The translations under genes and the position numbers were made by a program. This document shows positions 1-56,752 of a stretch of DNA of 64,000 nucleotides, one piece after another; the stretch's first letter is position 1, and each line of letters opens with the position of its first letter. The notes under the pieces are model-generated. The model was not told the DNA's origin. It was given only the letters and a program-made list of their open reading frames with translations, and did no database searches. Origin of the DNA: Lamellibrachia columna (lineage: Eukaryota > Annelida > Polychaeta > Sabellida > Siboglinidae); assembly GCA_963662155.1 (NCBI GenBank), contig OY759270.1, positions 14,725,008-14,789,007 of the forward strand. Direction: 5' to 3'.

Positions 1-75
1 TCTGCTTTGATGTAACTTATCAGAGGGAGGCTGCACTAGAGTGAAGATGTCCCCACCCCCCCCCCTAATATACTG
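1..75 (+). mobile_element. MULE left-end fragment joined to LINE repeat
   Basis: These bases match the 5' untranslated part of MULE copies A (from about 11208) and B (from about 44878), including the C-tract followed by taatatactgg. At about position 75 the match stops and the sequence becomes the 1.8-kb LINE-derived repeat at the point equivalent to about 1927. The rest of the MULE lies outside the window to the left. Identity is seen directly; the insertion or deletion event behind the junction is inferred. Confidence 0.8.
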
Positions 76-1119
76 GATGCAGACATACTAGTAAAGAGAG
101 TGGAAGAGAAAGGTGAAAAAACATAAAAGATGCAAGAAAAGGGGAACGAACAGCTAAGATCGAAGGACTGCGTGAGGTGGGATATGAGAAGATCGGGGGA
201 AGATGAATGATGGAGAGGGGCAAGATGAAAGATGGAGAGGGGCAAGATGAAAGATGGAGAGGGGGCAGCCGATAGAAAAGTATGGAAAGATAAAACAGAA
301 AGAGTGACTCGACAATATTTTACCTGAACCTAACCCATGAACATAAGTGAAAAAAGAGGAAAAGCACCGATAGTTTGGTAAAAAAAAGTTAGGTTTAATA
401 AATCCAATAATATGGTCAACATTTTCATAAGCAGTGTATAAATTGCTTAAGAGAAAAAACATTATTTCAATAGAATATTTGCTAAATATTTACAAAATCA
501 ATCTCTCATATGTATCTCTGTTTGAGCAATACGCATTTTACCATATGGTTGTACTCATATAAACGACGTAATCTTCTTGACTACAGCATGCTCATAAAAA
601 TCAAATATCCTTTGTCAAGAAGGATGTACAGTGAAAGTATAAATAAAAACATTAAACAAATCAATCTGGTTACCAAATCATAAGCCATTACTACTCAGCG
701 CAAATACTGATTTATTAGAACAACTGTAAAAGTTAGTTTCTCAATCTAATGTGACATTCTCCCCTCCCCCACAATTCATTGTTACAGTTTTTACAATGTC
801 TGTTTCACTCATAATCCAATGAATTTGCAAGAGCACCATCAATGGCCTGCTTCCAAGGCGGTTATGTCTACTTATGACACCAACCTGTACCAACACACAA
901 AGTGGGGATAGGCAAGCGCGATCCAATTGAAGTGACCCTTGATATTGTTTACTCTCCGTCCACCAAAATTGTTTCTGGCTGCCGCAGCACCTGCAAAAAC
1001 ACCTAAAGTAAAGGCATGTTTATGTTTACACAGCACTGTATCCACTCCTTGGGATTGTTCAACGTGCTTGACAGTTCATTCCCTGGCTGACCTGTTCATT
1101 TCAACACCTTTTGTACTTA

Positions 1120-4399: not shown

Positions 4400-4707
4400 C
4401 GCGATAATCTCGCGCTAAGTTTGCAGTCAAACACGTCGAAAACGAGTGGGGATTGCGTCTCTACGTCGGTGATCGCGACGACGTCGGCGCCTCGAAAATA
4501 GGAGGCTTCGACAACGGCGACAATGTGGTCGTATGTTTGATGCGACAGTTCATCGACGACAGCGAACTCATGACGACGGCGCTCGGCAGCATCAAACCGC
4601 TGCCCAAATACATATTTGTCTTGCTCGACGTCACCCAATCTTCATCCATTCGCCCACGTCTACGGCAACTGCTCTTACAAGACTCTGCCTCCATCCAGGT
4701 CAAGTGA
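4400..4707 (+). CDS. GC-rich possible exon, function unknown
   Basis: A plus-strand frame with strong G/C preference at third codon positions, unlike the AT-rich flanks. It reads through LYVGDRDDVGASKIGG and PLPKYIFVLLDV and ends in a stop after SIQVK. A plausible 3' splice site (tttgcag) lies near 4422 and a possible donor (CAG/GTCAAG) near 4699. It begins right after the end of the 1.8-kb array. The beta-strand-like pattern recalls a receptor ligand-binding lobe, but I cannot name a family. A minus-strand frame over the same bases is also open; third-position bias favours the plus strand. Confidence 0.35.
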
Positions 4708-5223
4708 AGCACGGATGCACGAATCCGACGTCTCTTTGATGCGATACCAAAGCTAGTTTCGTTCCAGGACACACGTTAGATGATGTAAACATTATAGCAA
4801 ACAATCAATCATCTTTGATATAGCATTCAACGCTCCCCATCAAAGACACCGCGTGCGACACAAGTGTTGACTTTGTACCAGGATACACGTGTGTAACAAA
4901 CACTGATACGCAGACACGCTTCCCTGCCGACGTTTAATAAAAGCCACATGCCGTGATATGAGCTGGTATGCGCATTGAGCTATACAGGCCTATGTTGCAA
5001 CATTTGTTTTTGCGCGGTTTATTATTTTACTTTTCGTACTAGTGTTAGCAGTGAGATGCGCGCATGAGTAAGCTACAGCGTGGTGCGAACCATGGCTATA
5101 TTAAATATTGCTAAACACTTGTACATGTCTGCATTAACAAACAAACGGCATATCTCCCTCCCGCGCTGCCTCCTCTCCTTTCCTCGCTTCTTCTCTGACC
5201 CTTCTCCTTCTCTCCCATCGAAT
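4708..5223. other. No gene seen
   Basis: Mixed-composition sequence without a convincing frame. The part from 5150 to 5220 is a pyrimidine-rich tract (ctcc/cttc). Confidence 0.5.
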
Positions 5224-5512
5224 GGGGCGTGACAACGTTCCAGATAGAACGTCAGGCTCCCAGTCGTGAAAACCCTAGCTTGAACCGTCTTGCTGCCGTT
5301 TCGAAGCTTTGGCAATTTGTTTCACCGAACGTTGCCACAGCTCATTCGTTTGTATGAATGAGTATCTGGCTATATGCAGTGGTGATTATACGTACGAATG
5401 GTCTTCGAGCAGTAACTGCATCATGACTGAGTGCTTCCCAGAGAAGTCGAGATGGAGTTGGAATGAACAGGTGTGCTAGTGGTGAAGTGTAAAACACGTT
5501 GAACACTGAACG
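5224..5512 (+). mobile_element. Degenerate tRNA-derived SINE
   Basis: Alignable end to end with the reverse complement of the SINE at 10395-10726: a tRNA-like head (ggggcgtgacaacg..., decayed A and B boxes), then a body containing cgttgccaca, gaatgagtatctgg and cagtggtg, then a tail with gaagtcgagatgg, gaatgaacaggt and gtgaagtgtaaa. Divergence is much higher than between the LINE repeat units, so this is an older insertion. Confidence 0.65.
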
Positions 5513-7635
5513 TACACTAACTGATGCGTAGTATTATTTTTTGGTGTAACCATGTTGAGAAAATTGCTGTAAACAGAACGATTACGTATCCTCAATAGAA
5601 CAACACGCATGTGTCGATACAATTAGGATATCAGAATAATTGCGACATAGAAATTGCGCTTCTAAGTGAGGATTACAACATCATTCAGGGCGTTGACAGG
5701 TGTCAAGGCGTAGTGCTGCAATAGATTATGTTATGCAAACAGGACAACGCCGTCCGAGCGCATGGACAATGCGTGTCGTAGTTCGTTGATTACTTCCGCC
5801 AGCACAGACAACAGACCACAATGGTTCATTCCTGTTTACCAGCCAGCATGCGGGGAGTTCTTGCATTTAGCGTGTCTTATATAGCAATCCATGCGAAGTT
5901 GGTGATTCTTCTTCCAAAAATTGGTATACGGTGTACGGCCTACCATGACCGAAGAATGATCAATTGGAGAAATATGGAGGAGTGTGCAAGATAGCATTTC
6001 GTGAGCTACATCCGTGTTGGAGTGCATGTTATCTGCTTCAACATACGTTGTATATCAATAGCACACGCTGCGTGCTTCCTGTGGTGTTCTCTGTAAAAGC
6101 TGATCTCATCTAGATAGGTAGAAATGCATTGCGTTGACAGCCAGTCGGACGAAATTGGTGAAGAAAGAGATGATTCGAGACAGCTACTAACAAAAGGAGC
6201 ATTATAAACAGGGACTTTGTGACCTACCAGAATGCGGAAGGTTTGTGTATAAACATTATTTGGCTTTGTAGATAAATAATATCTATACTACGGAGTACAC
6301 ATATTTGATATGGTTTTAATTCTGATACATATTTTATTCATTCTACAAACGATTGATCATTTCATATGGAGTTTTGGTTAATTTATTGGGACAGATTACT
6401 TATTAGTGACCACTATGTTTTTCTGCTTCTGATGAAACTCATGACTGTGTATTAGTCGCACCAAAATGTTGCTAGACTGTTGCTGGCAAGGAGACGAGAC
6501 ACTTTCTATGCGTTTTGGCTTATTGTTGGCTAACGTAACAGTTAACAAAGTAACGGCGGTGGGAATTGCTAGATGCATAGATAATAAACGGACATACCAG
6601 TTATCACAACTGTTCGATGATACTATTGCCAATATAATAAACCTTTTCCACTTGGAGTGTGTTGTATTCCTAAGACAGGGTTTTGTAGGGTTGTTGATAT
6701 CAATTACACGGCCAACGTTCTAGTAGACGCCATCTTAGAGTGATAACTTCCGGCGCATGCGCATAATTCCACCACTAGATCTGCATAATTCAATATCAAT
6801 AACATAGACTAGTAATATTATTTATGCATGTTATACACTTTGCAGCATTACAACATGAACTATGCCATATAAGAAACATTCTAATTAACTAAATTGTTTA
6901 ATTAGTAGTTGTTATATCAGTTAAATGTAAAGTTAACCTGTTTCAAGAGTTCACACCACAAATTCAGCTAAATAGGTTTACCTACTATATAAACGGGTTG
7001 TCGTGTTGTCATAGGAGGTTACAAGTTCAACATATAGGGATTGTCAGTAGTTTGGCTGGAGAACTACAGGAAGGTCTGGGGGCCGACAAATCTCTCCCCT
7101 GAGAGCTGCTCGATATGTAACCATAAGAGACCCGGTGACTGTGGATTGGTCTCTCCAGCGACCGATAGGAGGTGCAACCAAATAGCAGATAATGCTAAGT
7201 GTCACTCACGTCATTGGACTCTTATTTTTTAAACAAAAGTACATCGATCATTACATATTCAGATTCAGGTTATTATTCTCGATTCGCATTAGTTGGTCAA
7301 TCGGCATCAGTTTTATTGTTATCGTAGCAAACGTCTGTCAATCCGTAATCAATTACATGTAAATTATTACGTTGATGTCCTTCCTTGCATTTTAGTAAAT
7401 CAATGCTTTCATTATATCACTCTACGTCACTCCCTAAACAAAAAGGCTATATAATATTAGTGTTTTATGGCACTCCAGCAAACATGCAAATTTGTTCTCA
7501 TCGAAGAACAGCCAGGCGACACTGTTAAGCTAATGCTTTCCACACGTTTTGATTTTACTGTGCTTCTCTACATGCAATCTAAAGTCTGACACATAAGGAA
7601 ACGTCTTGCAACATATTGTGTGCACCTAATCGATT
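5513..7635. other. No gene seen
   Basis: About 2.1 kb with only short frames. No domain, splice-phased exon pair or repeat could be supported. Confidence 0.45.
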
Positions 7636-8090
7636 CAAATAGACATGCAAAATTTACCCCACCAATAATAACTAACTCGGATTTACTTGCATTTAACTTT
7701 AATGTGGTCTCTGTCATCCAATGGAAGATTTTGTGGAGACAATCCCTGAGCTAGTTTTGGAAGTGATTTGTATCTCATGTAGCCAAAATAGCATAGGTCT
7801 GTGATTTATTAGCATACACTTGGTGATCCAAGTTGTGACGTTGGATAACTGAGCCAAGTAGAGTAGCGTAGAGAGTGAAACACCCTGAGGAACATTACGT
7901 GAAGTAGGGAGCGTAGCTGAGAAACAATTCGCTATCTTCATTCTTTTGCATCTATCAGTTAAATATTATGAGAACCAGCTCTGTTCCAGATATGCCACAC
8001 CACATTGACACACTTTTAATAAGTTGTCCTGTGACCAATGGTATCAAATGCGGCAGATAGCTTCAGCAAGAAAATGGTCTCCTTCCATAC
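7636..8090 (-). pseudogene. Decayed LINE reverse transcriptase
   Basis: Read on the minus strand in shifting frames, recognisable RT blocks appear in the right order: SAAFDTIGHR (usual SAAFDTIDH) near 8070-8035, VPQGVSLSTLLYLAQL (usual GVPQGSVLGPLLF) near 7890-7848, HQVYANKSQTYA (usual H.VYADDTQ.Y, both Asp lost) near 7820-7785, and FHWMTETTLKLNASKSELVIIG near 7730-7668. The block order and loop sequences fit a CR1/L2/Rex-like LINE. Many stops show it is long dead. Confidence 0.75.
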
Positions 8091-8503
8091 ACTTCCTGGA
8101 CCCACTACCCAGTGTGTAGATCCGCTCAAGTCTGGTCAATAACAGATTTAACACCTACACATGGTTCACTGAATGGTATTAATTCAGTCAACACTTGATC
8201 ATTTGCTGTGTCGCCAGAACAGTCTGCATTGATTGTCCTTAAACACTTCCAGGAGAAACCATATGGCAATATCTTCATTATGTTGGACCGTCGACTGCAA
8301 CGGTATTTTTTTTAATAATACAATAAGTTATAACATTTATATAAATTAAATTTAACAAAGGTAATAATAAATACATTTGTATGTGGGCGTTTTTTTTTAC
8401 GTACAGGGTACACTTTTGCCAAAATGAACTTTCCCGCATAGTATTGAAATAATTAATGGTGTAATATTAATTCAGTCTAAATATATATTCCTTGCTCACT
8501 TAC
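8091..8503. other. AT-rich stretch, no gene
   Basis: Mostly upstream remnants too decayed to place, plus AT-rich sequence from 8300 to 8460. Confidence 0.45.
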
Positions 8504-8735
8504 CATATGCTTCTGGGAAAATCTCAGCTGATTGATGCACAACAACCAACTCACTTCTTCGTGGTGACGTACTACTCACGAGAGATGGAGTAAAGAGCTG
8601 ACCCATTGTGTCTGCAATGATATTAACATATGTCGTCATTTCATCATCCCAAAAGCCAATAAATGAATGGGTCAAATTTTCTACAGTTTCTTTTAATGCA
8701 GGCCATGTGAATATGTTACACATTTTTTTTACAAA
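8504..8735 (-). CDS. Candidate internal exon, unknown protein
   Basis: Open minus-strand frame reading FTWPALKETVENLTHSF, then FWDDEMTTYVNIIADTMG, ending SAEIFPEAYG at a strong donor (ATATG/GTAAGTGAG, boundary at about 8505). The left edge is uncertain: the best acceptor (aacaag) is weak. It may belong to one gene with the candidate exon at 9666-9858, whose phase 0 end would suit a phase 0 start here. No family recognised. Confidence 0.4.
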
Positions 8736-8739
8736 TATC

Positions 8740-9050
8740 TTGTTACACATAGGTGTAAGAAAACCTGTCTACTTAAATGCTTCCTTTTCTGTCTGAATCA
8801 ACCAATGGTTCCATTCCAAAAATATATATAATTCGACCAAATATTACATCTATATTACACATCTGTTGAATACTAGTGGAATGATAGGATGAACATTTGA
8901 AGCAGTGTGCCGACGACCATAAAAGGATCAACATTTGCAGCAGTAAAAATACCCCAAAAAGCCATCTTGGTGCCCCCTGGGGAAAGACAGCTACCCATAT
9001 ACCTGGGGCAGTTCGGTCTACAACTCCTTCCCACGTGTTTTTAATGCAAG
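8740..9050. other. No gene seen
   Basis: Intron-like sequence between two candidate exons; nothing recognisable. Confidence 0.4.
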
Positions 9051-9054
9051 AGCA

Positions 9055-9655
9055 AGAGAGCTCTTTACACTTCTAGTAAGCTGTAATGTCCGTGAAAGAC
9101 TAACCGGGTTGCGAGTGCAAAAATCACTTTACACTACAAGTCAGCTGTTATATCTGTATAGAGACTCACTGGTATGTAAGTGCAATAATTATTTGACACT
9201 TTGAGTCAGTTGTATGGCCTATATAAAGACTCACTGGTATGTGAGTTGAAGAATAATTTTTCAATTCGAGTCAGCTGTAATGTCGGAATAAAGACTGACT
9301 GGGCTGTGAGTACAACAATCACTTGACACTTCAACTAAGCTGTAATATCTGTGTAAAGACTGACTTGGCTGTGAGTACAACAATCACTTTACACTTCAAG
9401 TAAGCTGTAATAGCTGTGTAAAGACTGACTGGGCTGTGAGTACAACAATCACTTTACACTTCAAGTAAGCTGTAATGTATGCGTAAAGACTGACTTGGCT
9501 GTGAGTACAACAATCACTTTACACTTCAAGTAAGCTGTAATATCTGTGTAAAGACTGACTGGGCTGTGAGTACAACAATCACTTTACACTTCAAGTAAGC
9601 TGTAATGTCTGCGTAAAGACTGACTTGGCTGTGAGTGCAATAATCAGCATGAGCC
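9055..9655. repeat. 65-bp minisatellite, about nine units
   Basis: Tandem units of 65 bp, for example those beginning ctttacacttcaagtaagct at 9387 and 9452. The left units (9055-9300) are diverged; the right ones are nearly identical. The array begins within about 10 bases of the donor of the candidate exon at 9666-9858, inside its intron. On the minus strand every unit contains gtactcacag preceded by a T-rich run, which resembles a 3' splice site. Confidence 0.9.
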
Positions 9656-9665
9656 AAGAACTTAC

Positions 9666-9858
9666 GCTGTCGATGTTCTCATCCTTGTGTGGTTTGTCCC
9701 AGGTGACACCGACGCCGTCCTGTCGTGACGTCTTTACTGCTGGTACGTCAATTGTTGTGTAATCGAATGGCTCTGTGTCGTCCACTGATGTAGTCATGTT
9801 GTGTACTGACTTTTGTGACTGAGGTTTGATGGTGGCACCTGGAATGATGACATCAAGT
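9666..9858 (-). CDS. Candidate internal exon, unknown protein
   Basis: Minus-strand open frame between an acceptor (gcctgtatag, boundary 9859) and a donor (GACAGC/GTAAGT, boundary 9665), 193 nt. It encodes LDVIIPGATIKPQSQKS, then DDTEPFDYTTIDVPAVKTS, then VGVTWDKPHKDENIDS. It starts with one base completing a codon and ends in phase 0. Codon content looks like real protein (few rare or stop-adjacent codons) but I recognise no domain. Confidence 0.45.
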
Positions 9859-9930
9859 CTATACAGGCAATACATATCAGTCAGTGTTGTAGTTTGATCA
9901 TTATAATAGTTTACAGAAATTACAAAATAA

Positions 9931-10394
9931 CTTATCTGGGAGTCCGACTTATCTGGGAGTCTGACTGTGTAATGAGTTGGTTGTATTTAGTCAGTTCTGT
10001 GTCATGGCGTGCAACACCCATAACTGTCATGTTCCTGAGAACAAAAACAAGAGTTGTGGTTGGATATGGGTTGTCGGAAGAGTTTAAAGTTAACATCGGT
10101 TAGAGGCAAGGAAATGACCCTTTACTCTTTATCATGGTGGTGGCACTAATCAGCAGGAAGATCAGCATGAAAGATGTTCTCATGAAGGGGATGTATGCAA
10201 ACGATCTGGCCAAGATAGCAGACAAAAAACAAGAACTACAGGAAGTGTTGGAGCAATGGAAGGGGATGTTCAAGAAGCACGGACCGATAATGAGCCGGGA
10301 GAAGACAGAAGAGATGTGTGTTTGACATAAGAGAGAGGACTTGAACATTAGTTTGGATGATGAGGAGTTCAACCAAGTGGATGGCTTTGTGTAA
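9931..10394 (+). pseudogene. LINE-repeat fragment, left half
   Basis: Matches the 1.8-kb unit from its position about 1117 to 1565, including the YANDLA box and KTEEM motif. A short local duplication of tatctgggagtc(c/t)gact occurs at its start. It is interrupted at 10394 by a SINE and resumes at 10727. Confidence 0.8.
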
Positions 10395-10726
10395 AAAGTA
10401 AAGGTATGTTCTTATATAGCGCGGTATCCGGTCCATAGGACTGCTCAAAGCGCTTTACACTTCACCCCCTGGCAGACCTGTTCATTCCAAAGCCATCTCA
10501 ACTTCTTTGGGAAGTATTCAGCCACGCTGCAATTGCTGCGCAAAGGCTATTCGTTCACATATCCACCACTGTCTGTATTTCCAGGTACTCATTTATACAG
10601 CTGAGTGAATTGTGGCAACGTGGGGTGATCAAACTTGCCAAAGGTTCGAAGCGACCGCAGTGGGATTTGAAACTGGGTTCTCTCGACTGAGAGTCCGGCC
10701 TTCTAACCGGTATGCTATCGCACCCC
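10395..10726 (-). mobile_element. tRNA-derived SINE, inserted into LINE repeat
   Basis: On the minus strand it starts with a tRNA-like head: ggggtgcgatagcataccgg carries an A-box-like segment (tagcataccggttagaag) and about 35 bases on, a B-box-like segment (cagtttcaaatccc). It ends in a tail with gtgtaaagcgctttgagcag and gcgctatataagaac, a tail type shared by many metazoan SINE/LINE families. It interrupts the LINE-repeat between tttgtgtaa and ggtaacttgg; the intact unit reads gctttgtgtaacttgg, giving a short imperfect target duplication (ttgtgtaa / ttggtaa). Confidence 0.85.
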
Positions 10727-10870
10727 TTGGTAACTTGGAGGAATGGTTAATGAGGATGAGCATTCAGAGGTAGAAATGCGATGCCGGATACAACAGGGAG
10801 CGAATGCTCGGGGAAAGGTAGAGGGAGTCATGTTGGACAGAAACATTTTGAAAAATCTGAAAAGGAAAGT
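10727..10870 (+). pseudogene. LINE-repeat fragment, right half
   Basis: Continues the unit after the SINE (taacttggaggaatgg...) up to ctgaaaaggaaagt, where MULE copy A begins. The unit does not visibly resume to the right of the MULE, so the far flank was lost or rearranged. Confidence 0.8.
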
Positions 10871-11390
10871 ATATTTTTTTACCTGGTGCCACAATACACC
10901 TATGTAAACAGACCCAAATATCACCTTTGAGTGTGGATTACTGAAAAGCCAGACACAGCAACTTGTCGAATTGCATAACATTACATAACCTACTTAGTGG
11001 AGTCCTCAGAAACAACTCACCTTCCCTGTGAAACAGTTACGCCAGCTCACTAGGCCATATCAGATAACAGCTGGGCCTGTCCTGGATTTTCTCATCTCCC
11101 AATAGATGTGTGCTCTTCACATGGACTTGAGTAAAGGTGACTGTGTCTAATTAACCGAAATAAACAAAAGTTGACTGCTAAGTAATTATATTATAATGTG
11201 ACTTGTTCTGCTTTGATGTAACTTATCAGAGGGAGGCTGCACTAGTTTGAATATGTCCCCACCCCCCCTAATATACTGGTCTCCTGTCACTGTCATCTGT
11301 TTTCTCAGGCGGATTAGACGTCTTTGCATTCAGATAACGGTTTTGTCACTTTCATTAGTAATTTTACTTGGATTTACCTGGGATTTTACA

Positions 11391-13726
11391 ATGGAGGAGA
11401 CAACACATGATAGTAGTAGTAGTAGTAGAAAGAGTGAGGAGAAATGTCCACCTGCTGGTGGAATTAAGATGAAAATTGGTGGCTTCAAGACCGGTCACTG
11501 TTACCACAAACCATCAGATGCAGCCATCCAACAGGAACCCAGTGGGGTTAACAGTGGGGTTTGGTTGCCACGGCTAAGCCAGGATGACTTTGACAGAGTG
11601 GTGCAAACCACTCCTTCAGGATTGCTGGCAGTTTCAGACGCAGAGGGTCGGCCAGGCACGAGCAAAATTCTACGGCCACAGCTTGATCAATGCCCTGACC
11701 TAACAGACATCTATCTTCAAGCTGACGTACATACAGATACTCATGCAGTTTCTGAAATGCGTCTACTTAGTGTGGACAAAAATGCAGCAATGTGGAATGA
11801 TTGCTTTAAAGAGCATGCTAGCAGAGAGGACACATGTATTCTTCCACACTTCGAAGTACATGAGAAAAAATTTGGTTTGTGTTGGCAACAGTCATTGTCC
11901 TGTACAGCCTGTCACTACAAGTCACGTATGTATAAACTGTATTCCGAAGTAAACACGGGCAGTCGTGGTCAGAAACCGTGTGCTCCAAATGTAGCCATCC
12001 ATGTAGGACTACAAGATACAACGATGGGAAACACAAAGTTGCGACACATTCTGCCCACAACAAACACACCTCCCCCAAGTCGAAGCGGGATGCAAAGGAC
12101 ATCCAACCGGGTTGCCACAATTACTTCTCAGTCCACGACTGATGACCTACAGTAGAAGAGGGAAAAAACCAGAGATAAATGTTCTGCGTGGTCTTCCAGC
12201 AAATGCACCAATCAATATAAGCATGGATGTGAGGTACAACTCAACGTCCCTGAAAAACAGCTACGGTTGTGGACAGAGTGCAAGTCAAGCAGTGGGAACC
12301 GCGATTGAATGGCAGACGGACAAGCATAAGATTCTAGGTTTTCACATGGAAAACAAGCTATGCAAACTAGGCTCATCACTTCGCAATCAAGGTCAAAATG
12401 TGTCGTGCACAGGCCATCAAGGATGTACAGCCACGATTCGTGTGGTCGATCCAATGTCAGAATATGAAATAGGCCGCCAAATCGGAGTGAGCTTTGCCCA
12501 GCAACAGGTCGGACTAAAATTCGTTGCAACAGACGGTGATGCGAAAGCATTTCATGGGTTACAGGATGCCATGCCAACAGTCGCGGCAGAACGGCAGGCT
12601 GACACAACACATCTCGGTCAGACACAGTTCTGACATATCATGAGAGCATATTTCTCACCCAGAATGTTCCCGGGAGAGAATGCCATGGTGTGAGCTGAAA
12701 ACAAGAACATTTTTGCAGAGGATGTAAGAACACGGTGCCAGAAAATCTACACTTTATGCTGGTGACATTAGAATGATAACTACTAAGATGCCAAAGATAA
12801 TCCAAGCAACACTGGACTGTTATTCTGGCTCATGTCAGAACTGTCACCCACCGACATGGAATTGTCTGTCGTGGAGGCAAGCGAAACAACTGGTGGAAAA
12901 GGTCACACTTTATGCTGGTGACATTAGAATGATAACTACTAAGATGCCAAAGATAATCCAAGCAACACTGGACTGTTATTCTGGCTCATGTCAGAACTGT
13001 CACCCATCGACATGGAATTGTCTGTCGTGGAGGCAAGCGAAACAACTGGTGGAAAAGGTCACAGCATTTGAAGGCATGTGGCCTGACACGACTCAATATG
13101 ACAGATGAAGACCGAGCAACACTTAAAGGATTAATAGAAATGCGACTTGGAAATTCAGCACTCCAGATGACATGACACAGACTTACAACTGACAAGAATG
13201 AATCCATTAACCGTTCATTCAGTGCTTCATTGCCGAAGAATGTTAAATTCAGTAGAAATGCACATGGACGAGTGAGTTCAGTGATCGATCGCATAAATTA
13301 TGGAGCGGGGAATTCAATGCTGCGCAAGTTGGAGAATGTACATTGTCCTATTACGAGAGGTGGACAGGTCGCTGAGCTGTCAAGCAAATCTAGCATGAGG
13401 TGGAATACCAGAGACAATACAAACGTCGATCATCAGTGCGTCTGCATATCCGTCATACCAAGTTAAAGCGCATGCAGAACTACTTCGATTCAAACAGAAA
13501 CCGCCGTCCAGAAGATCGATACCTGAAGTGTCAGCTTGATCCAAAACCATCTACTCGTAAAGGGAAGAAAAGGCCAGCTTCAGAAACGCCAGCAGCAGTA
13601 GTTAAGCCAGTGGTCACAAGGAGTCGCCGCAGAAAGACAACACTGCCAACTGCAAACAGGGAAGATCATCCTTATTCATTGCGATCACGAAAGTCTGCTG
13701 ATCACAGTTATGCCAGCAGAAAGTAG
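11391..13726 (+). pseudogene. Mutator-like transposase, copy A
   Basis: The start is taken at the ATG of MEETTHD. The N-terminal part is open to a TAG at 12153 (CAG in copy B) and is followed by a 2-base loss. In order: a serine run, a CTACHYKS-type Cys/His segment, a helix with PPPSRSGMQR, then INISMDVRYNS with the first candidate catalytic Asp (12226-12228), NKLCKLG, a CTGHQGCTAT zinc-like motif, VATDGDAKAFHG with the second Asp (12532-12534), a CYSGSCQNC motif, and the C-terminal block INRSFSASLPKNVKFSRN. A stop at 12631-12633, a local 156-bp in-frame duplication (12751-13062) and later shifts break the gene. The motif set matches the animal Mutator-like transposase family; the assignment is from memory of that family. 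Confidence 0.8.
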
Positions 13727-13950
13727 AGGGTAGATTATGAAAGAAACAGAAAACAGAACACTTCTTACAAATGTGAACTTTCTACTTTCTCCCAGTTTCA
13801 TCACTCATAGACCTGCAACAACAATACAAGAAACCACCAACAGACAATGGACCATGACTGACACATGGTGCCATCTTGTGAGCTATACATCAATCGACAT
13901 TCGAAGACATCACTCAGCATGGGCTGACAGACACAACTGCATAAGATTGA

Positions 13951-14430
13951 CTACAGCAGACGACATTTTGAAAAAACTGAAGGATTCAACACATCTAGAA
14001 AAATGTAAGTTTTACTATTGCATTGCCATTGAAATACCTTGAATTGCAACATACACTTTGGATATGGTGCATGAACAAAGCATACATTTTGACTAACACA
14101 ATATTGCCTGTTGTTATTTATGGAATGTGGCTCCATAGAGATATGACTTGCTGTCAGACACAGACTGTTATGACAAAGATGACTGGCATCTAAGCCAGGT
14201 TCAACACGTGTCATTTTGTGTTCAAGTATATAACTTAAACGATGCACTGTAACCTTTCTGTAGCCACACTCAAAACGGCAATTAATCACACCATAGTCAC
14301 TGAATTTCCCTTTTTTGCACCCTGTCCACAACTGACACTGCCCACTGGCAGACAATACCACCTTTTCTTGTAATTTTGCAGTGTACTTTTTACAAAAATC
14401 AACATCCATGTTTTCTGTTTCCGTTGCCAT
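13951..14430 (-). CDS. His-Cys box endonuclease, I-PpoI-like
   Basis: Intact 159-residue ORF facing the transposase tail to tail. Upstream zinc ligand Cys32 lies in GQCQLWTG; DYGVIN and VHRLSYILEH follow. The His-Cys box has H84, C86, C91, H96, N105, C111, C117, H120 and C126. Spacing from H84 to C111 equals that of I-PpoI from H98 to C125: known catalytic H98 and N119 correspond to H84 and N105, and known zinc ligands C100, C105, H110, C125, C132, H134 and C138 all have counterparts, with one-residue adjustments near C117. Such enzymes (His-Me finger nucleases) cut specific DNA sites using one metal ion. The ATG at 14430 aligns with the natural start of the domain. Whether it cuts the element ends, a genomic target or nothing is unknown. 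A truncated copy of its 3' part lies in MULE copy B and a diverged homologue in every unit of the 52-64 kb array. Confidence 0.85.
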   Translation of the reverse strand: MATETENMDVDFCKKYTAKLQEKVVLSASGQCQLWTGCKKGKFSDYGVINCRFECGYRKVTVHRLSYILEHKMTRVEPGLDASHLCHNSLCLTASHISMEPHSINNNRQYCVSQNVCFVHAPYPKCMLQFKVFQWQCNSKTYIFLDVLNPSVFSKCRLL

Positions 14431-14651
14431 GACACTCTATTTGGAGTCAGACCACAGTTGGGAATTGCATTGGTGGCCATGTTAACGTTTTGTCTGATTA
14501 TAAGAAAACCTGACCATCAAAAATTCTGAAATAAATGTGCAGCAACTGCCATCATCTCATTGACATGCTCACCAACGTTTATCAAAATCACATGGCTCCA
14601 GCTCTTTTAAAATGCCCCCATGTGCGATGCCCGTCAATATTTACAAAAAAT

Positions 14652-15528
14652 AGCTGTGTATTCATGCGCCCACGATTTTGTAAGTTAAGGGAATTTGTTA
14701 GAAAAAAATTTGTTTAGTAATCAATAAACAACTATTGCTTATAGTAAGATCATGATAATATAATAAGCACACAGGTCAATGGAAATATACTTACTTGAGA
14801 CCACTTTGCACAGCAGATGGTCTCGAATGGGTAGTTTTCCCTTTTGCCCCATAACACTGAACAAACTCATAAGGCCATGAGTCATCAGTGACCGCATAAT
14901 GGCCCTGCAGGATCTAGCAAGGCTTGCACCCTCTAGTGACGAAAGAATTTGAATCTGTGTAAAATAAATATATATTTTATATAAAATGACAACTTTATTT
15001 TAAAGGAACAAAGTTTGATCATTTCTATATTATAAAATTGTTTGCATGCATGCATGCACGCACGCGCGCACGCACGCGCGCACACACGTACATATGTATG
15101 TATGCACTTGCAGAAACTCATTATTGTCACTCACAAGCAAATTTTTATTCCTAAACCAAAAATAATAAATAGGTAATTTATTTTCTTTTGGATTATTTTA
15201 ACCTTTTTCTTCCCATGTTATAATGTTGGACCAACAATCAGTTACAGTCAGAGTATCTGTAGCTATATGAAGTGAACTTGTCTTGAAGGAACACAAACAT
15301 TATTGACTAAACAATTATGAAGCTGGACCATTTTGATATTCATACATTCATGAAATAATTTATATTTCACACCTTTAAGCATAATTTGAAATGTCACAAT
15401 AATTCCTAGAAATAGGTTCTGTATAGAAAGCTTTCCAAATTAATTTAGACTCTAAGGTTTCTTCAAAAATACAGTAAAAAAGCAATGCCACTTTATAATT
15501 GACTCAAACATATCTTAAACATACTAAA
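14652..15528. other. No gene; contains microsatellite
   Basis: Right flank of MULE copy A and downstream sequence of the DUF4806-like gene. Apart from the dinucleotide-rich tract at 15042-15105, nothing recognisable. Confidence 0.45.
15042..15105. repeat. Alternating purine-pyrimidine microsatellite
   Basis: gcatgcatgcacgcacgcgc-type repeat running into cacacgtacatatgtatgtatgc. Uninterrupted alternation of purine and pyrimidine over about 60 bases could adopt Z-DNA. Confidence 0.9.
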
Positions 15529-17233
15529 TCAATTCCTTATGTCATCATCTTCACCCAACTGTTTTTCAAAATTGCTCAGTTCATTGAGTGTGTTCAGTTT
15601 CTTGCCATTAGGCAGAATGGTGTCTAATGTCAAGTCATCATCTGGCTGTGAAGTGACGAGAGATAATTTTATCTCCTGCATTGTTTTCTCCAGTTTCTCT
15701 AGCTTGGCCAGAACTGAAAAATTGAGACAACTATATCCGCTTGAATCGATGCAAGCAATTTTAGGTGGGTCTTCCCCCTGCAAGCAATCCCCAAAGGGTG
15801 AGAAAGAAGTACATTTATTTATGGGAATTGTGCCAAGGCTAAAAAGAGTGTCAAATCTTCATTTGGGGTTCCCTGATTATGGAATGACCAATGCCAGCAA
15901 TTTTAGTTGGGTCCTCCCCCTGCCAGCAACCCCCAAATGGTAAGAAAAGGGGCATTTATTTAATTGAATGATGCTTATTTAATGGGGTGACAAGGAGGAT
16001 AAAAACAGTGTCAAGTTTTCCCATGGGGTCCCCTGAGTAGGGAAAGACCAATGGTATATTAGCACTTAAAACGGCCTACGTGTAAAGAAGCATAAAGGAG
16101 TACCTTGAATGCAGAAGGAGCTCGACATCATCTGTGATCTGCCAGGACTCTCCATTTGCAGTCCATCACCCTGTGGACGTTGTTGTTTGCCGAGAACTTG
16201 CGGCAGCTTAAGTTGGGCCTGGGATGAACTGCAACTAGGTCGAAGTGGTGGCTCTGTACGCTTAGAAGATTTACCTCTGGGCAAATCACTGCCACTTTCA
16301 GTATCCAGTGCTGTATTGAACATAAATGTTACAATTATATATTATTATCTATTAGTTTATTTGACATGAAAGTCACAGTGACATGAAATATTTAGGATAT
16401 ACATTTGGACAGAGACATCACATTCTTACAATAGTAGATATAGAGAAACCAAGCAGACAAAACTCAGACTTCTTCAATAAATAGCCATTAGACCTGTACA
16501 AGTGAATCAGATGACATTTAATGTCCACATTATGTTATAGTATTCAACAAGTGTGATAGACATGTGTATAGTAAATGCACGATACTTTTGATATTAAAAT
16601 CATAGCTCGTTAATCCAGACACATACAGTGGGTATCAAGGTGTCAGGATTAACCAAGTTCCACTGTCCTTTGTTGTACATTAACTATATGTTATGTATAT
16701 TTGTATAATTGTTACCTGAGAAACTGAAAGGAGGTGGAAGGAGTGCAACTGTTTCCACAGTATCTGGAGTTTCCTCAACTTCTGAATCTGAAACTATTTT
16801 CAGGGTTGTACAGAGTTTGTCTTGGTAGAATACCGATATGTTCTTGAAGTTAAACCTACAATCAAATTGATATTTGTCCAGAATCAGACACCAAAGTTTG
16901 TATTTGTAGATGTATTTAAGTATACATATTGAGAGACAAAAAGTTTGGCTATTTGATATTTTGGCTGCGTTTTCTGTCACGGGTTTTCTCAAAATATAAC
17001 CCAAATGTTTTTACACGAACCCTCCCCCTCTCCACTAAAACAAATTCTTACGTAGTCAGCCTGGGTAATGTCTGCAAATAACCAATTAAGCCATAATTAG
17101 TATTCCACACAAAAATTGCATTTTTATTACTTACCCCATCTCCTCTTTTTTCTATCCATGATGTTGGTACGCATTCCACTTCCACAGCATCACCTTCTTT
17201 GAAAAGAACCACAGAGTATGGCATGGCTATACT
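15529..17233 (-). CDS. DUF4806-like gene, five-exon model
   Basis: Phase-consistent exons: 17224 (ATG) to 17135; a 20-nt exon 17071-17052; 16855-16716; 16310-16104; 15777-15529. Every boundary has AG and GT (for example GATGGG/GTAAGT and TTCTCAG/GTAACA) and phases 0, 2, 1 and 1 join correctly. The start reads MPYSVVLFKEGDAVEVEC then VPTSWIEKRG, like the N-terminal module found in many invertebrate DUF4806 proteins; the middle has VSDSEVEETPD; the end has a coiled segment LAKLEKLEKTMQEIK and ILPNGKKLNTLNELSNFEKQL, the opening of a DUF4806 domain. It then stops after EDDDIRN, so the domain is truncated or a further exon uses the GGTGAAG donor just before. The usual CFWPP segment after exon 1 is missing. 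An acceptor (ggtttcag) before the ATG implies a 5' noncoding exon. Confidence 0.55.
15763..16050. repeat. Tandem duplication spanning an intron-exon boundary
   Basis: Sequence around the acceptor of the last DUF4806-like exon (tcttccccctgcaagcaatccccaaa... to accaatg) recurs about 134 bases away (gtcctccccctgccagcaacccccaaa...). The duplicate also carries an acceptor-like gctggcag and a copy of the exon start. Confidence 0.75.
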
Positions 17234-17647
17234 GAAACCAAGGAGATGTGAAATCAAAACTGTTTACAAATCAGCTTGTACAGTTTTACACAGGCAAAGC
17301 TTATATTTTCTCTATGCTTTAAAATAATTGAAAAATTTAATATTAATTACACTGACATTCAACGAATTCCACAGTTTTGTCCCATACTAATACATAATCA
17401 ATGACATAGCCCAAGCTTCTATCAGTTGATACATAGGTTCTGGAAAACTGATTTTGTTTTCATGTGCAGCATGCATTTCTATGCCTTACAAATTACATAT
17501 GAATGTTTTATTCATCTCTATATTTTAATGTTTGTAATATGTTAGCTATAACAGGTGGCTCAAATATCATGGCTATTAACATAATACAATATAATTTTTT
17601 ACAAAGGACATTAACAAAGTAAGCATGTGTGTGTGTGCGTGTGTACC
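17234..17647. other. No gene seen
   Basis: AT-rich spacer, likely intron or 5' region of the DUF4806-like gene, with a short (tg)n tract at 17628-17643. Confidence 0.4.
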
Positions 17648-18506
17648 TCAGTAGTCATGAAGGAGCTGAATAAACACAATGTCACTGCCAGAGTCCATCC
17701 TTATACATCTCTTAGTTAGGACTTTTCCTTCCACAATTTTCATTTCATAGTTTGTTCTCCGCACTTTGCAGCCACCAATAGTCCGAGAATCACAGGGGTG
17801 CATAAATAAAGCCCCTGGTGAATGGTAAATCCCGCATTTGTATGTGTCTTCTTGTCTATTCTCCACACAAACCACTTCACAGTACTAGATCTGTATGCAT
17901 TATCTGGCCGTCTATGATAAATATGTCTTTGTAGAGTTGTATACTCCTCTTCATGTTGTATTTCTTCGAAGAGTCTTTTCACAATTTGGGCGGCAGGATT
18001 TCTGCCAGACCTCACCTTTCTGATGATTCACTCTCACTGTATGATTCTACTTCCCTGTCAGTAGGGATGTCATCAGTAATAGTATCACTGTATGCATTGT
18101 CATCATAATCATCATTAGTAACATTGTCACTATGGTGGTCATGTTCATCACTGTGGTCATGTTCAACACTGTGGTCATGTTCATCACTGTGGTCATGTTC
18201 AACACTGTGGTCATGTTCAACACTGTGGTCATGTTCATCACTGTGGTCATGTTCAACACTGTGGTCATGTTCATCACTGTGGTCATGTTCAGCATTTGTG
18301 TTATGCTCAACTTGGTCATTATTGCTTTCTTGAAATTCTGTCACATCTTCTGATGTTTCATTTTCGGAAGTGTTTCCAATTAATTCACGTGTATCTGCAT
18401 CTATTTTGGACTTTATTCTCTTTTCCGACATCCATCTTCTGCAATATTCCCTTTTCCGTGCTCTTTTCATATGGGCACTCAACGCGTCTATATCCTGCTC
18501 AAACAA
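17648..18506 (-). CDS. Acidic HDHS-repeat protein, unrecognised
   Basis: The first exon-like ORF (18506-18012) starts MFEQDIDALSAHMKRARK, has a basic patch KREYCRRWMSEKRIKSK, then an Asp/His-rich six-residue repeat (HDHSDE/HDHSVE) and an acidic Ser-rich end YSESESSER at a strong donor-like AG/GTGAGG. Beyond it other frames stay open: NPAAQIVKRLFEEIQHEEEY (to about 17885) and, after an acceptor-like catacag, CEVVCVENRQEDTYKCG to IQLLHDY. How these join is uncertain (intron or frameshift). Basic plus acidic regions suggest a nuclear protein; no known family identified. Confidence 0.45.
18131..18296. repeat. 18-bp coding minisatellite
   Basis: Tandem 18-bp units in two alternating versions (gttcatcactgtggtcat and gttcaacactgtggtcat). 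On the minus strand they encode the HDHS(D/V)E hexapeptide and keep the frame open. Confidence 0.9.
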
Positions 18507-19740
18507 ATTTCCTCTATAACTAATGATGCAGAAGATAAGTCATGGCAGATGTTATATGTTGGCCAATCCCCTACTAAATGGACAGTTGTACAACAGTACC
18601 CCTAGCTGGCAGATAACCCTGTTGAAACTTGGAACTTAATTAGTGTTGCTGCTAGGGGTAGTGTAGTACTACTATACCACCCCTTGCTATAGTGATGATT
18701 ACACAAAATAAGTAATGTCACTGGACACAACTGTCTCAGATCTACACAGTGTTAAGTTGGTAGATTAGCCTTATATTTGACAAGGATAACATTTGGGAAA
18801 GTACATGTGACAGCGTGCTGCATTTTGAGATTGATCTTGACATCAAGTTTAACAATGAAAAACAATACATTTGTAATACTAATACATTCTAAGTGACTTT
18901 TGGTTATTCATCAGTTAGCTACATACCTCGTTGCATCTAGTCGAGCCTTGTTATAACGCGGTAGTCGGGGTCCACGACTTCGGACCGCGCTGTAAGCGAG
19001 GCGCGTTAGGTGTTCTCATATCTGCCACCAGGGAGCTACGAAACAACAGCGACCCCCGCCCGCTGCACCAAGCCCAAGAACGCTGTCGAAGCCCCGTGTG
19101 CTTGCACCATTATCTTATACGGCAATATGCAGTTTATGGAACTTATTAAACGAGTATACTAGCATCAACGTGTATTATTTTTAAATGTCACACCCTCTTG
19201 ACTCTTGAACTGAATAAAACACACGTACGTATTTTGTTATGGAATAGATCTACTACGATGATGATGTACTGGACCAACAGGCCTACGAATCGAAAATAAT
19301 AACCTGGACCTGAGCAGCCGAAAACGTATATGATTTGACAAACGTAGTATGTAAGCTGATAAAACGCAGAAAAATACAATAGGTAGAATTAATAATTGTT
19401 TCACCTCGTCTTTCAACCGATCTCGACCGAAGCATACATTTATTACGCACCACTTAACATCGTTTCATATGCGGATGACGAATTCGTATTTTCGTTGGTT
19501 TCGCGTCTCGAAAACGATTAAATTTACGATGTAATGTAATATTACGCGGATTCGGATATAACGCGGTCGGTCGTGGATCCCGAATTTCTGCCGCCAGGGG
19601 AAAATGCCAACTAGGCCTGCTTAAACCTACTTAGAATTGCTTTGACAATTCTCAAGAAACATTAGGTGAACAATGTCAATGAACGAGTATCAACGTGTTG
19701 TTTGTTTTGCGCTGCCGCCGACATCAATCGCTGTCGCTGG
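18507..19740. other. No gene; two short GC-rich dispersed repeats
   Basis: Two related segments, 18948-19025 (gttataacgcggtagtcgg...) and 19555-19610 (atataacgcggtcggtcgtgg...), share the start tataacgcggt followed by a GC-rich block and ccgccaggg/ctgccaccaggg. They look like ends or copies of a short mobile repeat. Otherwise nothing. Confidence 0.45.
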
Positions 19741-19789: not shown

Positions 19790-20845
19790 TGAAAATTTGT
19801 CTGATGTTTTTAAAACAGTATTGTGTTTGCTGGGCTCAGCCATAAAATTAAAGCTTTTCTAATACCTTTCAAAGTAAAATGTTTTAATAAAACATTAAAA
19901 TAATTTTTTTTTGATGTTATGTTCCTTTGTCAAAAATGTTTTTATGATGTTATATATACGTTTTAATAAAACATTGTTCAACAATGTTTTTCAAATGTTT
20001 CCAAGATGGCAAATTTTTATATCATTATAGCATATACAAAAACATTTTTATGACATTTTAGAAAACATTTTTCTGATGTTTTTTTAAACAGTATTGTGCT
20101 TGCTGGGCTCAGCCATAAAATCAAAGCTTTTCTGATACCTTTCAAAGTGAAATGTTTTAATAAAACATTAAAATAACATTTTTGTGATGTTTATGTTCCT
20201 TTGTCAAACATGTTTTTATGATGTTATATATATGTTTTAATAAAACATTGTTCAAACAGGTTTTTCAAATGTTTCCAAGTCGACACATTTTGATATCATT
20301 ATAACATTAAAAAAACATTATTATGACATTTGAGGAAACATTTTTCTGATGTTTTTAAAACAGTATTGTGTTTGCTGGGCTCAGCCATAAAATCAAAGCT
20401 TTTCTTATACCTTTCAAAGTGAAATTTTTAATACAACATTAAAATAAAATTTTTGTGATGTTTAGGTTCCTTTGTCAAACATGTTTTCATGATGTTATAT
20501 ATATATTTTAAAAAAACATTGTTCAAAAATGTTTTTCAAATGTTTCCAAGATGGCACATTTTGATATCATTATAAAATTAAAAAAACATTATTATGACAT
20601 TTGAGGAAACATTTTTCTGATGTTTTTAAAACATTATTGTGTTTGATGGGAATGTTTTAATGATGTTTTAAAAACATCACTGAAAAATGTAAAATTACGT
20701 TATCTTAAAAACATATGTATGATGTTTCTGAAATTTTACATAACATTTTATTTACATTTACGAAATGTTATTGAAAAATGTTTTCGTTATAACATGTATA
20801 TAACCTTTATCAAATGTTATAAAAATGTTATGTGTTTGCTGGGCG
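19790..20845. repeat. 273-bp tandem repeat with many aaaacatt/aatgtttt motifs
   Basis: The landmark tgctgggctcagccataaaa occurs at 19828, 20101 and 20373, a period of 272-273 bp. Units are packed with short inverted aatgttttaat...aaaacatt motifs. After three units the array decays (20640-20845) and ends with the same gtgtttgctggg phrase that starts each unit. Confidence 0.85.
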
Positions 20846-43812: not shown

Positions 43813-44011
43813 GGAGTCAGACCACAGTTGGGAATTGCATTGGTGGCCATGTTAACGTTTTGTCGGATTATAAGAAAACCTGACCATCAAAAATTCTGAA
43901 ATAAATATGCAGCAACTGCCATCATCTCATTGACATGCTCACCAACTTTTATCAAAATCACGTACCTCCAGCTCTTTTAAAATGTGCGATGCCCATCAAT
44001 ATTTACAAAAA
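43813..44011 (+). mobile_element. MULE right-end fragment
   Basis: Matches copy A 14443-14651 (ggagtcagaccacagttggg to tcaatatttacaaaaa) with a few substitutions and a 9-10 base gap. It lies just upstream of where the endonuclease start would be and defines the common right end of the element. Confidence 0.85.
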
Positions 44012-44544
44012 TTCCCATAAATCCCTCCGCCAGTTAAACTCTCCAAAAAATGCGCTATTTCACAGCCAATAGCTTCTATAAACAAACCTGTGAATATTCA
44101 TGCTCAAAGGCAATCATGTCACATAATATGAATTTATTAAGTTCACAATTTCACGTGCCCTACATTCGTGTGAAACAGTAAACAGGAAGGTCAACTGTGG
44201 TCTTACCCCTATTAAATAAAAATGGTAATTGTGCAGACAAAAATTTAATTTAGCCTGTTGATAAAGGTAAATGAAAATCATGCATTCATGCAAAAAATCT
44301 ATGTCCTACCTAGTTGTTGGAGTTGCTTACATACACAAGGAACCACCACCTGTGGTGGGCAGAACACACATATATGAGCTACTTCAGCTTGAGACAGTCT
44401 GTATTCTAGTACGATACTCGAATACACTCACTTTTTCAGCTCACTCGAATGAACTTGTAACATAATTTTTGGAATAGTCCAGCATGTGTTCTGTAATCAA
44501 ATTCTATATAGCCAGTTGTTATTGCATACTGAAAATTATAATAA
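44012..44544. other. Spacer between two MULE pieces
   Basis: Unique sequence; nothing recognised. Confidence 0.45.
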
Positions 44545-45060
44545 TTTTTTTTACCTGGTGCCACAATACACCTATGTAAACAGACCCAACTATCACTTTT
44601 GAGTGTGGATTACTGAAAAGCCAGACACCGCAACTTGTCGAATTGCACAACATTACATAACCTACTTAGTGGAGTCCTTAGAAACAACTCACCTTCCCTG
44701 TGGAACAGTTAGGTCATATCACTAGGCCATATCAGATAACAGCTGGGCCTGTCCAGGATTTTCTCAACTCCCAATAGATGTGTGCTCTTCACATGGACTT
44801 CGGTAAAGGTGACTGTGTCTAATTAACTGAAATAAACAAAAGTTGACTGCTAAGTAATTATATTATAATGTGACTTGTTCTGCTTTGATGTAACTTATCA
44901 GAGGGAGGCTGCACTAGTTTGAATATGTCCCCCCCCCCCTAATATACTGGTCTCCTGTCACTGTCATCTGGGTTCTCAGGCAGATTAGACGTCTTTGCAT
45001 TCAGATAACGGTTTTGTCACTTTCATTAGTAATTTTACTTGGATTTACCTGGGATTTTAC

Positions 45061-47240
45061 AATGGAGGAGACCACACATGATAGTAGTAGTAGTAGTAGT
45101 AGAAAGAGTGAGGAGAAATGTCCACCTGCTGGTGGAATTAAGATGAAAATTGGTGGCTTCAAGACCGGCCACTGTTACCACAAACCATCAGATGCAGCAA
45201 TCCAACAGGAACCTAGTGGGGTTAACAGTGGGGTTTGGTTGCCACGGCTAAGCCAGGATGACTTTGACAGAGTGGTGCAAACCACTCCTTCAGGATTGCT
45301 GGCAGTTTCAGACGCAGAGGGTCGGCCAGGCACGAGCAAAATTCTACGGCCACAGCTTGATCAATGCCCTGACCTAACAGACATCTATCTTCAAGCTGAC
45401 GAACAGGCAGATACTCATGCAGTTTCTAAAATGCGTCTACTTAGTGTAGACAAAAGTGCAGCAATGTGGAATGATTGCTTTAAAGAGCATGCTAGCAGAG
45501 AGGACACATGTATTCTTCCACACTTCGAAGTACATGAGAAAAAATTTGGTTTGTGTTGGCAACAGTCATTGTCCTGTACAGCCTGTCACTACAAGTCACG
45601 TATGTACAAACTGTATTCCGAAGTAAACACTGGCAGTCGTGGTCAGAAACCGTGTGCTCCAAATGTAGCCATCCATGTAGGACTACAAGATACAACGATG
45701 GGAAACACAAAGTTGCGACACATTCTGACAACAACAAACACACCTCCCCCAAGTCGAAGCGGGATGCAAAGGAAATCTAACCGGGTTGCCACAATTACCT
45801 CTCAGTCCACGACTGATGACCTACAGCAGAAGACGGAAAAAACCAGAGAGATAAATGTTCTGCGTGGTCTTCCAGCAAATGTACCAATCAATATAAGCAT
45901 GGATGTGAGGTACAACTCAACATCCCTGAAAAAGCTACGGTTGTGGACAGAGTGCAAGTCAAGCAGTGGGAACCACGATTGAATGGCAGATGGACAAGCA
46001 TGAGATTCTAGGTTTTCACATGGAGAACAAGCTATGCAGACTAGGCTCATCACTTCACAATTAAGGTCAAAATGTGTCGTGCCCAGGACATCAAGGATGT
46101 ACAGCCACGATTTGTGTGGTCGATCCAATATCAGAATATGAAATAGGCCGTCAAATCGGAGTGAGCTTTGCCCAGCAACAAGTCGTACTAAAATTCGTTG
46201 CAACATATGGTGATGTGAAAGCATTTCATGGGTTACAGGATGCCATGCCAACAATCGAGGCAGAACGGCAGGCTGACACAACACATCTCGGTCAGACACA
46301 GTTCCGACATATCATGAGAGCATTTTTTTCATCCAGAATGTTCCTGGGAGAGAATCCCATGGTGAGAGCTGAAAACAAGAAAATGTTTGTAAAGGATGTA
46401 AGAACACGATGCCAGAAAATCTACACAGATATGCACACACTTTATGCTGGTGATATTATAATGATAACTACTAAGATGCCAAAGATAATCCAAGCAATAC
46501 TGGACTGTTATTCTGGCTCATGTCAGAACTGTCAGTGACATGGAATTGTCTGTCATGGAGGTAAACGAAACAACTGGTGGAAAATGTCACAGCATTTGAA
46601 GGCATGTGGCCTGACTCGACTCAATATGACAGATGAAGACCGAGCAACACTTGAAGGATTAATAGAAATGCGACTTGGAAATTCAGCACTCCAGATGACA
46701 CGACACCGACTTACAACTGACAAGAATGAATCCATTAACCGATCATTCAGTGCTTCATTGCCAAAGAATGTTAAATTCAGTAGAAATGCACATGGACGAG
46801 TGAGTTGAGTGATCGATCGCATAAATTATGGAGCGGGGAATTCAATGCTGCGCAAGTTGGAGAATGTATATTGTCCTATTACGAGAGGTGAACAGGTCGC
46901 TAGAGCTGTCAAGCAAATCCAGCATGAGGTGGAATACCAGAGACAATACAAACGTCGATCATCAGTGCATCTGCATATCCATCATACCAAGTTAAAGCGC
47001 ATGCAGAACTACTTCGATTCAAACAGAAACCGCGGTCCAGAAGATCGATACCTGAAGTGTCAGCTTGAACCAAAACCATCTACTCGTAAAGGGAAGAAAA
47101 GGCCAGCAGCAGTAGTTAAGCCAGTGGTCACAAGGAGTCGCCGCAGAAAGACAACACTGCCAACTGCAAACAGGGAAGATCATCCTTATTCATTGCAATC
47201 ACGAAAGTCTGCTGATCACAGTTATGCCAGCAGAAAGTAG
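45061..47240 (+). pseudogene. Mutator-like transposase, copy B
   Basis: Same protein as copy A but broken at different places: open from the ATG at 45061 through the former stop of copy A (CAG here) to a 2-base loss near 45928, which follows INISMDVRYNS (first Asp at 45902-45904). Frame is recovered for IEWQMDKHEILGFHMENKLC, a TAA after SSLHN, CPGHQGCTAT, then VATYGDVKAFHG in which the second catalytic Asp is Tyr (46206-46208). CYSGSCQNC, NWWKMSQHLKACGLTRLN, SASLPKNVKFSRN and a basic C-terminal tail RSRRRKTTLPTANRE follow, with a TGA at about 46806. It lacks the 156-bp duplication of copy A, so that duplication is private to A. Confidence 0.8.
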
Positions 47241-47626
47241 AGGGTAGATTTTTAAACAAACAGAAAACAGAACACTTCTAACAAATGTGAACTTTCTACT
47301 TTCTCCCAGTTTCATCACTCATAGACCTGCAACCACAATACAAGAAACCACCAACAGACAATGGACCATGACTGGCACATGGTGCCACCTTGTGAGCTAT
47401 ACATCAATCGACATTCGAAGACCTCACTCAGCATGGGCTGACAGACACAACTGCATAAGATTGACTACAGCAGACGACACTTTGAAAAAACTGAAGGATT
47501 CAACACATCTCGAAAAATGTAAGTTTTACTATTGCATGGAAATACCTTGAATTGCAACATGCACTTTGGTATGGTGCATGACCAAAGCATACATTTTGAC
47601 TAACACAATATTGCCTGTTGTCATTT

Positions 47627-47637
47627 ATTGAATGTGG
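47627..47637. other. Copy B truncation point in the endonuclease gene
   Basis: Similarity to copy A ends abruptly within the antisense endonuclease at the codons just downstream of its N105-C111 segment; the host sequence that follows contains the promoter of the next gene. Confidence 0.6.
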
Positions 47638-52199: not shown

Positions 52200-52255
52200 C
52201 ACGGACCACAGTCACTTTTCCCATAGACGACCATTATAACATTCTTGCGCCTACA

Positions 52256-54084: not shown

Positions 54085-54256
54085 AGGGGAGTTCAAGAGA
54101 GGATTACCTCATAGCCCTGCGAGCACAACGAAGCATGGACACACAGACAGACAGGCAAGCAGCTGAGCATGCAAAAACACACAAACTGGTGAGTAATGAT
54201 AAGACTGGCTTAATTAATTCTTTGATTTGTCTCTCACCTGTTCAACTGCACAATTT

Positions 54257-56580: not shown

Positions 56581-56752
56581 AGGGGAGTTCAAGAGAGGAT
56601 TACCTCATAGCCCTGCGAGCACAACGAAGCATGGACACACAGACAGACAGGCAAGCAGCTGAGCATGCAAAAACACACAAACTGGTGAGTAATGATAAGA
56701 CTGGCTTAATTAATTCTTTGATTTGTCTCTCACCTGTTCAACTGCACAATTT

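Follow-up and report, generated by a model that had tools for sequence, protein, structure and literature searches.

Introduction

KolobokP DNA transposons, as portions of the text of Kojima & Bao (2022, Mobile DNA 13:24, PMC9587614) describe them, carry long terminal direct repeats (LTDRs), a transposase gene and, downstream and convergent to it, a gene for an I-PpoI-like nuclease, and they form multimers that are usually flanked by target duplications, the target-site duplications being 3–5 bp. According to the same portions, a zinc finger between the DxxH motif and the E is present in almost all Kolobok transposases and not in those of MuDR, P or hAT, and the CCHC finger is characteristic of KolobokP, E, D, Kolobok5 and a few others. 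Multimers are explained there by an "induced unequal crossover" model, in which the nuclease cuts the LTDRs, internally or at their ends, although the role of the nuclease is speculative in the paper's own words. Here, we analyse a stretch of 64,000 nucleotides from the annelid Lamellibrachia columna (assembly GCA_963662155.1, contig OY759270.1, positions 14,725,008–14,789,007; hereafter the window), for which an earlier note, made from the sequence alone, had proposed an undescribed Mutator-like element (MULE) with a convergent homing-type endonuclease gene at 11391–14430. Our analysis identifies this feature as a KolobokP DNA transposon, present as a truncated and dead copy within a genome of 880 Mb, a reading to which we give a probability of about 0.9. 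The element has a Kolobok-type transposase signature, a convergent I-PpoI-type nuclease gene, LTDRs of 455 bp with 18-bp inverted ends, tandem multimers and clustered copies. The pair of genes had been observed correctly; its superfamily was misnamed, and its kind has been known, under the name KolobokP, since 2022.

Results

The first two open reading frames (ORFs) of the transposase remnant match PF20700 (E values of 2.1e-21 and 2.5e-19), and across three frames the motifs follow in the order first D, CCHC zinc finger, TDGD, DTTHLG, second zinc finger and the E of KNESINR. As had been noted, the gene reads rightward and its last ORF ends 225 bases before the stop codon of the nuclease, but the transposase is not intact, because its motifs are spread over three frames. 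Homologues keep the same motif order (23 aligned, one of them partial, of 49 found; most of the aligned ones have 636–721 residues). As in KolobokP, C/DxxH accompanies the DDD/E core, the first D is followed by a CCHC finger, and another zinc finger stands between DxxH and E; judged by these motifs, the transposase is of Kolobok type and not of MuDR type. It is broken in all 17 copies read, the longest forward frame reaching at most 469 codons from stop to stop (one copy runs off the end of the stretch read). The 156-base duplication listed in Table 1 occurs in 16 of the 17 copies read across the region and is absent only from copy 2 of the window. Elsewhere in the genome, several isolated transposase loci have stop-free frames. 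A further 14 scored transposase loci, 45–48% identical to P0034, are clustered on contigs C2 (26.28–26.60 and 36.33–36.50 Mb) and C10 (15.78–15.79 Mb), and 12 of them have one stop codon.

The nuclease ORF is intact, with the eight zinc ligands (C32, C86, C91, H96, C111, C117, H120 and C126) and both catalytic residues (H84 and N105) that the earlier note had recognized, and it matches PF05551 (E value 5.9e-9; 36.7 bits for a cut-off of 27) and the I-PpoI sequence itself (E value 0.0011). The ligand and catalytic columns are invariant or more than 90% conserved among 80 aligned homologues. Spacing agrees with I-PpoI at the first zinc site and the catalytic pair but departs from it at the second zinc site, which reads C-x5-C-xx-H-x5-C in the window nuclease and C-x6-C-x-H in I-PpoI. 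The predicted fold of a relative, P0012 (80 sequences, pLDDT 94.5), has I-PpoI as its best match, with 16–20% identity in the fold alignment. The predicted structure of the window's own ORF (25 sequences) had a pLDDT of 44 and was not used. Beyond the homing endonucleases, the next matches of the P0012 fold are SMAD MH1 and NFI DNA-binding domains. MH1 was reportedly called a degraded homing endonuclease by Grishin in 2001 (cited in PMC4999995), and an origin from animal transposons that carry a nuclease of this kind is conceivable. Three residues of the window nuclease (K59, I68 and V119) are unique to it among the 36 copies read, and two further copies on C10 match its protein at 100%. Scans of IMG/VR gave one weak locus with the nuclease (L029:2454-2570, a 39-residue stretch 44% identical) and no match with the transposase.

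The boundary that the note found shared, 14443–14651, does recur at 43813, but it is the start of an LTDR, which in copy 1 continues to 14674. A complete LTDR in another locus (L060) measures 455 bp from GGAGTCACACCACAGTTG to CAACTGTGGTCTTACCCC and thus belongs to the ~450-bp class of the published KolobokP elements, whose LTDRs are ~450 or 660 bp long with inverted repeats of up to 18 bp and 5'-RR/YY-3' ends; the ends in L060 are GGAGTCACACCACAGTTG / GGGGTAAGACCACAGTTG. Only 2 of 73 LTDR instances in the DNA read align end to end. Relative to the complete LTDR, three stretches of 8, 43 and 7 bases are missing from that of copy 2. Tandem units of the form (LTDR-INT)n, INT being the internal region, are present in the copies read. 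Inverted pairs of 22–27 bases number four in 9800–16000, none joining the ends of copy 1, which is truncated, and an Rfam scan of the window gave nothing at the gathering threshold. Since 39 other full-length copies of 11391–14430, scored out of 1164 candidates, are 98–99% identical to it, the feature is not a chance arrangement.

The two genes are also linked elsewhere in the genome. PF05551 has no hit in 14 control genomes and 150 scored hits, of 620 candidates, in this one; these 150 nuclease rows were compared with 62 scored transposase loci (of 3359 candidates). In 17 of the 150 rows a transposase ends 351–1508 bases away, every time in convergent orientation, and no same-strand or other transposase lies within 5 kb among the 62 scored loci. 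Twenty-one nuclease rows are isolated, the nearest other nuclease row being more than 1 Mb away; because 13 of these lie within 1 kb of a convergent transposase and none of one on the same strand, the linkage is not due to chance. All 13 pairs sit outside the 150 copies closest to the window nuclease. The note's expectation of a convergent transposase within 5 kb is thus borne out at isolated loci, but with a transposase of Kolobok type; for copies in clusters, the answer comes from the DNA sequence as read. Its proposal that an I-PpoI-like nuclease is the second, convergent gene of a DNA transposon stands. Three isolated transposase loci on C9 lie exactly 4187 bases apart, as expected of a multimer, going by their positions alone. 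Six contig sizes are common to 49 transposase and 120 nuclease rows from a protein database, which suggests shared contigs without proving them. The longest contig is 3.4–4.75 kb, about one element, in 34 of the 120 nuclease and 14 of the 49 transposase rows; such contigs could be collapsed repeat assemblies or circular copies.

We base the assignment to KolobokP on the transposase signature, the nuclease, the LTDRs and the multimers, and several results weigh against it or against an active nuclease. No complete LTDR-INT-LTDR monomer is among the copies read, and among the 62 transposase loci scored (of 3359 candidates), none lies within 5 kb of 133 of the 150 nuclease rows, 8 of the 21 isolated rows among them. 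A profile of 25 nucleases reaches I-PpoI at an E value of only 0.12, and a Foldseek search with the predicted P0012 fold gave no match reaching 0.001. Within the subfamily, the selection check proposed in the note did not reveal strong constraint on the nuclease: in 36 copies, core variants are 27 nonsynonymous and 9 synonymous, giving an unweighted ratio of nonsynonymous to synonymous polymorphism (pN/pS) of 0.71, with no significance test, or 1.12 with transitions weighted 4:1, a weight that the observed 36% of transitions do not favour. The subfamily copies therefore say little for an active role, and the uninterrupted nuclease frame in 27 of 36 copies is explained by recent copying.

How, then, did the subfamily multiply? 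A search with the window nuclease protein gave 1384 candidates, the best 150 of which were scored and placed; all are at least 93% identical, 138 list no internal stop, and 149 fall into 18 clusters, defined by gaps of no more than 1 Mb between neighbours and spanning together 14 Mb, or 1.6% of the genome. There are one to three clusters per chromosome, those close to the start of a contig being on C9, C11 and C12 and others being internal, and they may mark heterochromatin or centromeres. At the sampled loci the copies are units of tandem arrays or parts of a larger repeat, and a 1.3-kb deletion derivative, in which internal position 1088 is joined to LTDR position 214, is mixed into the arrays. 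Window positions 4707–19276 recur in pieces on C7 at 92–98% identity. Twenty probes of 1.5 kb were placed in or next to two clusters on C7 and C10; 4 contain KolobokP sequence and 16 do not, so the blocks are mixed and not solid arrays. Near-identical copies share truncation points and flanks, from which we infer that multiplication went mostly by duplication and not by own transposition. The subfamily copies thus seem to be passengers of duplication, whose numbers grew mainly inside repeat blocks and not through jumping, and this degree of satellitisation is possibly new, if modestly so. Other tandem repeats stand in the window: an array at 52197–64000 with a unit of ~2.49 kb, ~99% identical, runs off its end beside a minus-strand ORF (51054–52202) that matches the reverse transcriptase family PF00078, and shorter arrays lie at 9063–9646 (65-base unit), 18135–18291 (18), 19791–20650 (271) and 32535–33048 (33).

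LTDR instances fall into classes, given here as positions in the 455-base repeat and as read, some ends perhaps being mere locus ends: 214–455 (26 instances), 1–232 (22), 1–412 (12), 214–258 plus 333–455 (4), 219–455 (4), 1–455 (2), and 333–455, 1–82 plus 327–455 and 1–84 (one each). A perfect 12-bp palindrome, GCCCACGTGGGC, occupies positions 226–237, surrounded by breakpoints at about 203, 214, 219, 232, 246 and 258. The right LTDR of copy 1 stops after 232 bases, within this GCCCACGTGGGC-like site, as do 21 other instances, and the 43 bases lost from copy 2 lay around the palindrome, with runs of A at the junction. A cut by the nuclease in this mid-LTDR palindrome would be a weak lead: palindrome and breakpoint zone were chosen after the data had been seen, most instances share their breakpoints by descent, other breakpoints, including the 8- and 7-base gaps of copy 2, lie elsewhere, and there are further, imperfect palindromes. 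The breakpoint pattern offers one concrete, if weak, candidate cutting site.

Table 1. KolobokP-derived features of the window.
Feature	Positions	Strand	Remarks
End of another KolobokP-derived tandem array	1..76	+	enters the window from the left
KolobokP copy 1, truncated	10871..14674	+	lacks left LTDR and first 326 bases of internal region
Kolobok-type transposase remnant	11391..13726	+	at least 4 ORFs: 11247-12155, 12112-12633, 12773-13108, 13400-13726
Transposase motif, D1	12226-12243
Transposase motif, CCHC zinc finger	12358-12426
Transposase motif, D2	12529-12540
Transposase motif, DxxH	12601-12618
Transposase motif, second zinc finger	12818-12844		again at 12974-13000
Transposase motif, E	13194-13214
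156-base tandem duplication in transposase region	12749..13063	+
His-Me finger (I-PpoI-type) endonuclease ORF	13951..14430	-	159 aa, core ~130 aa
Start of right LTDR, copy 1	14443..14674	+	first 232 of ~455 bases; begins GGAGTCAGACCACAGTTG
Left LTDR, KolobokP copy 2	43813..44209	+	397 bases; 18-base imperfect inverted repeats at ends
Internal region, copy 2	44210..47637	+	transposase broken, TDGD reads TYGD; ends inside nuclease gene

Discussion

What did the nuclease do for the element? In a working state, the transposase would have moved the KolobokP element, and the nuclease would have cut DNA within or at the ends of LTDRs; repair of the break against a neighbouring LTDR would then have added units in tandem. 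We tentatively favour this role, LTDR cutting that makes tandem arrays grow, over the others considered. The present copies would multiply passively, through unequal exchange and segmental duplication. Alternatively, the nuclease might serve transposition itself, acting either on a circular intermediate, whose abutted inverted repeats it would open, or on the target, which it would cut, as is also raised in the cited parts of Kojima & Bao (PMC9587614). The two 18-bp LTDR ends, which if abutted would make a near-palindrome, would fit such a role; the same parts of the paper, however, report no strong target preference, and we consider it unlikely. Classical homing, in which the nuclease would cut the other chromosome, at empty sites or at solo LTDRs, and repair would copy the element in, is how canonical homing endonucleases act (PMC9587614, in the portions cited), but with transposase copies at many separate places a single home site is hard to envisage, and we regard this role as less likely still. 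Returning to LTDR cutting, its most specific version, in which the homing endonuclease cut GCCCACGTGGGC and repair led to tandem expansion, truncation, microhomology deletions and megabase-scale satellite-like blocks, even after the death of the transposase, appears very doubtful.

As to the identity of the element, a MuDR/Mutator-like transposon newly joined with a homing endonuclease could be suspected from the name of the matched Pfam family, "Mutator-like transposase". PF20700 is, however, the only transposase family matched by the three full-length homologues scanned, the zinc finger between DxxH and E, which MuDR lacks between its second D and E (PMC9587614, in the portions cited), is present, and the ends are LTDRs with short inverted repeats. 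We therefore drop the MULE label and hold a MuDR origin to be highly improbable; that this Pfam label also matches Kolobok-type transposases calls for caution in annotation. A stray nuclease beside an unrelated transposase, co-copied by segmental duplication, would suit the duplication of the window subfamily inside larger repeats, but it is contradicted by the convergent pairs that 13 of the 21 isolated nuclease rows form on other chromosomes. The six common contig sizes, which suggest shared contigs, also speak against it, and it deserves next to no credence.

With its isolated open-frame pairs on the one hand and a dead-transposase subfamily grown into clustered blocks on the other, this genome can serve as a test bed for the KolobokP system. 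In this element, as in KolobokP, the direct strand encodes the transposase and the complementary strand, further downstream, an I-PpoI-like nuclease; both also have ~450-bp-class LTDRs bearing short inverted repeats, GG..CC ends, multimers and the zinc-finger signature. In contrast to KolobokP as described, the copy in the window is truncated, none of the 17 copies read has kept an unbroken transposase, and the 150 best-scoring copies crowd into clusters, with the 1.3-kb deletion derivative in tandem. I-PpoI, from a Physarum group I intron, has the same eight zinc ligands, catalytic His and Asn and, as predicted, the same fold, whereas the spacing of the second zinc site is different and the window nuclease is borne by a DNA transposon. 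MULEs have terminal inverted repeats and target duplications of 8–11 bp; a DDE transposase with C/DxxH and the Mutator name of PF20700 are what the window element has in common with MuDR/MULE elements, while its zinc finger and LTDR ends set it apart. Finally, transposon-derived satellite DNAs, in the portions cited of the review PMC12628747, likewise consist of tandemised transposon pieces for which unequal exchange between repeats has been proposed; what distinguishes the present case is a founding element equipped with a homing-type nuclease of its own.
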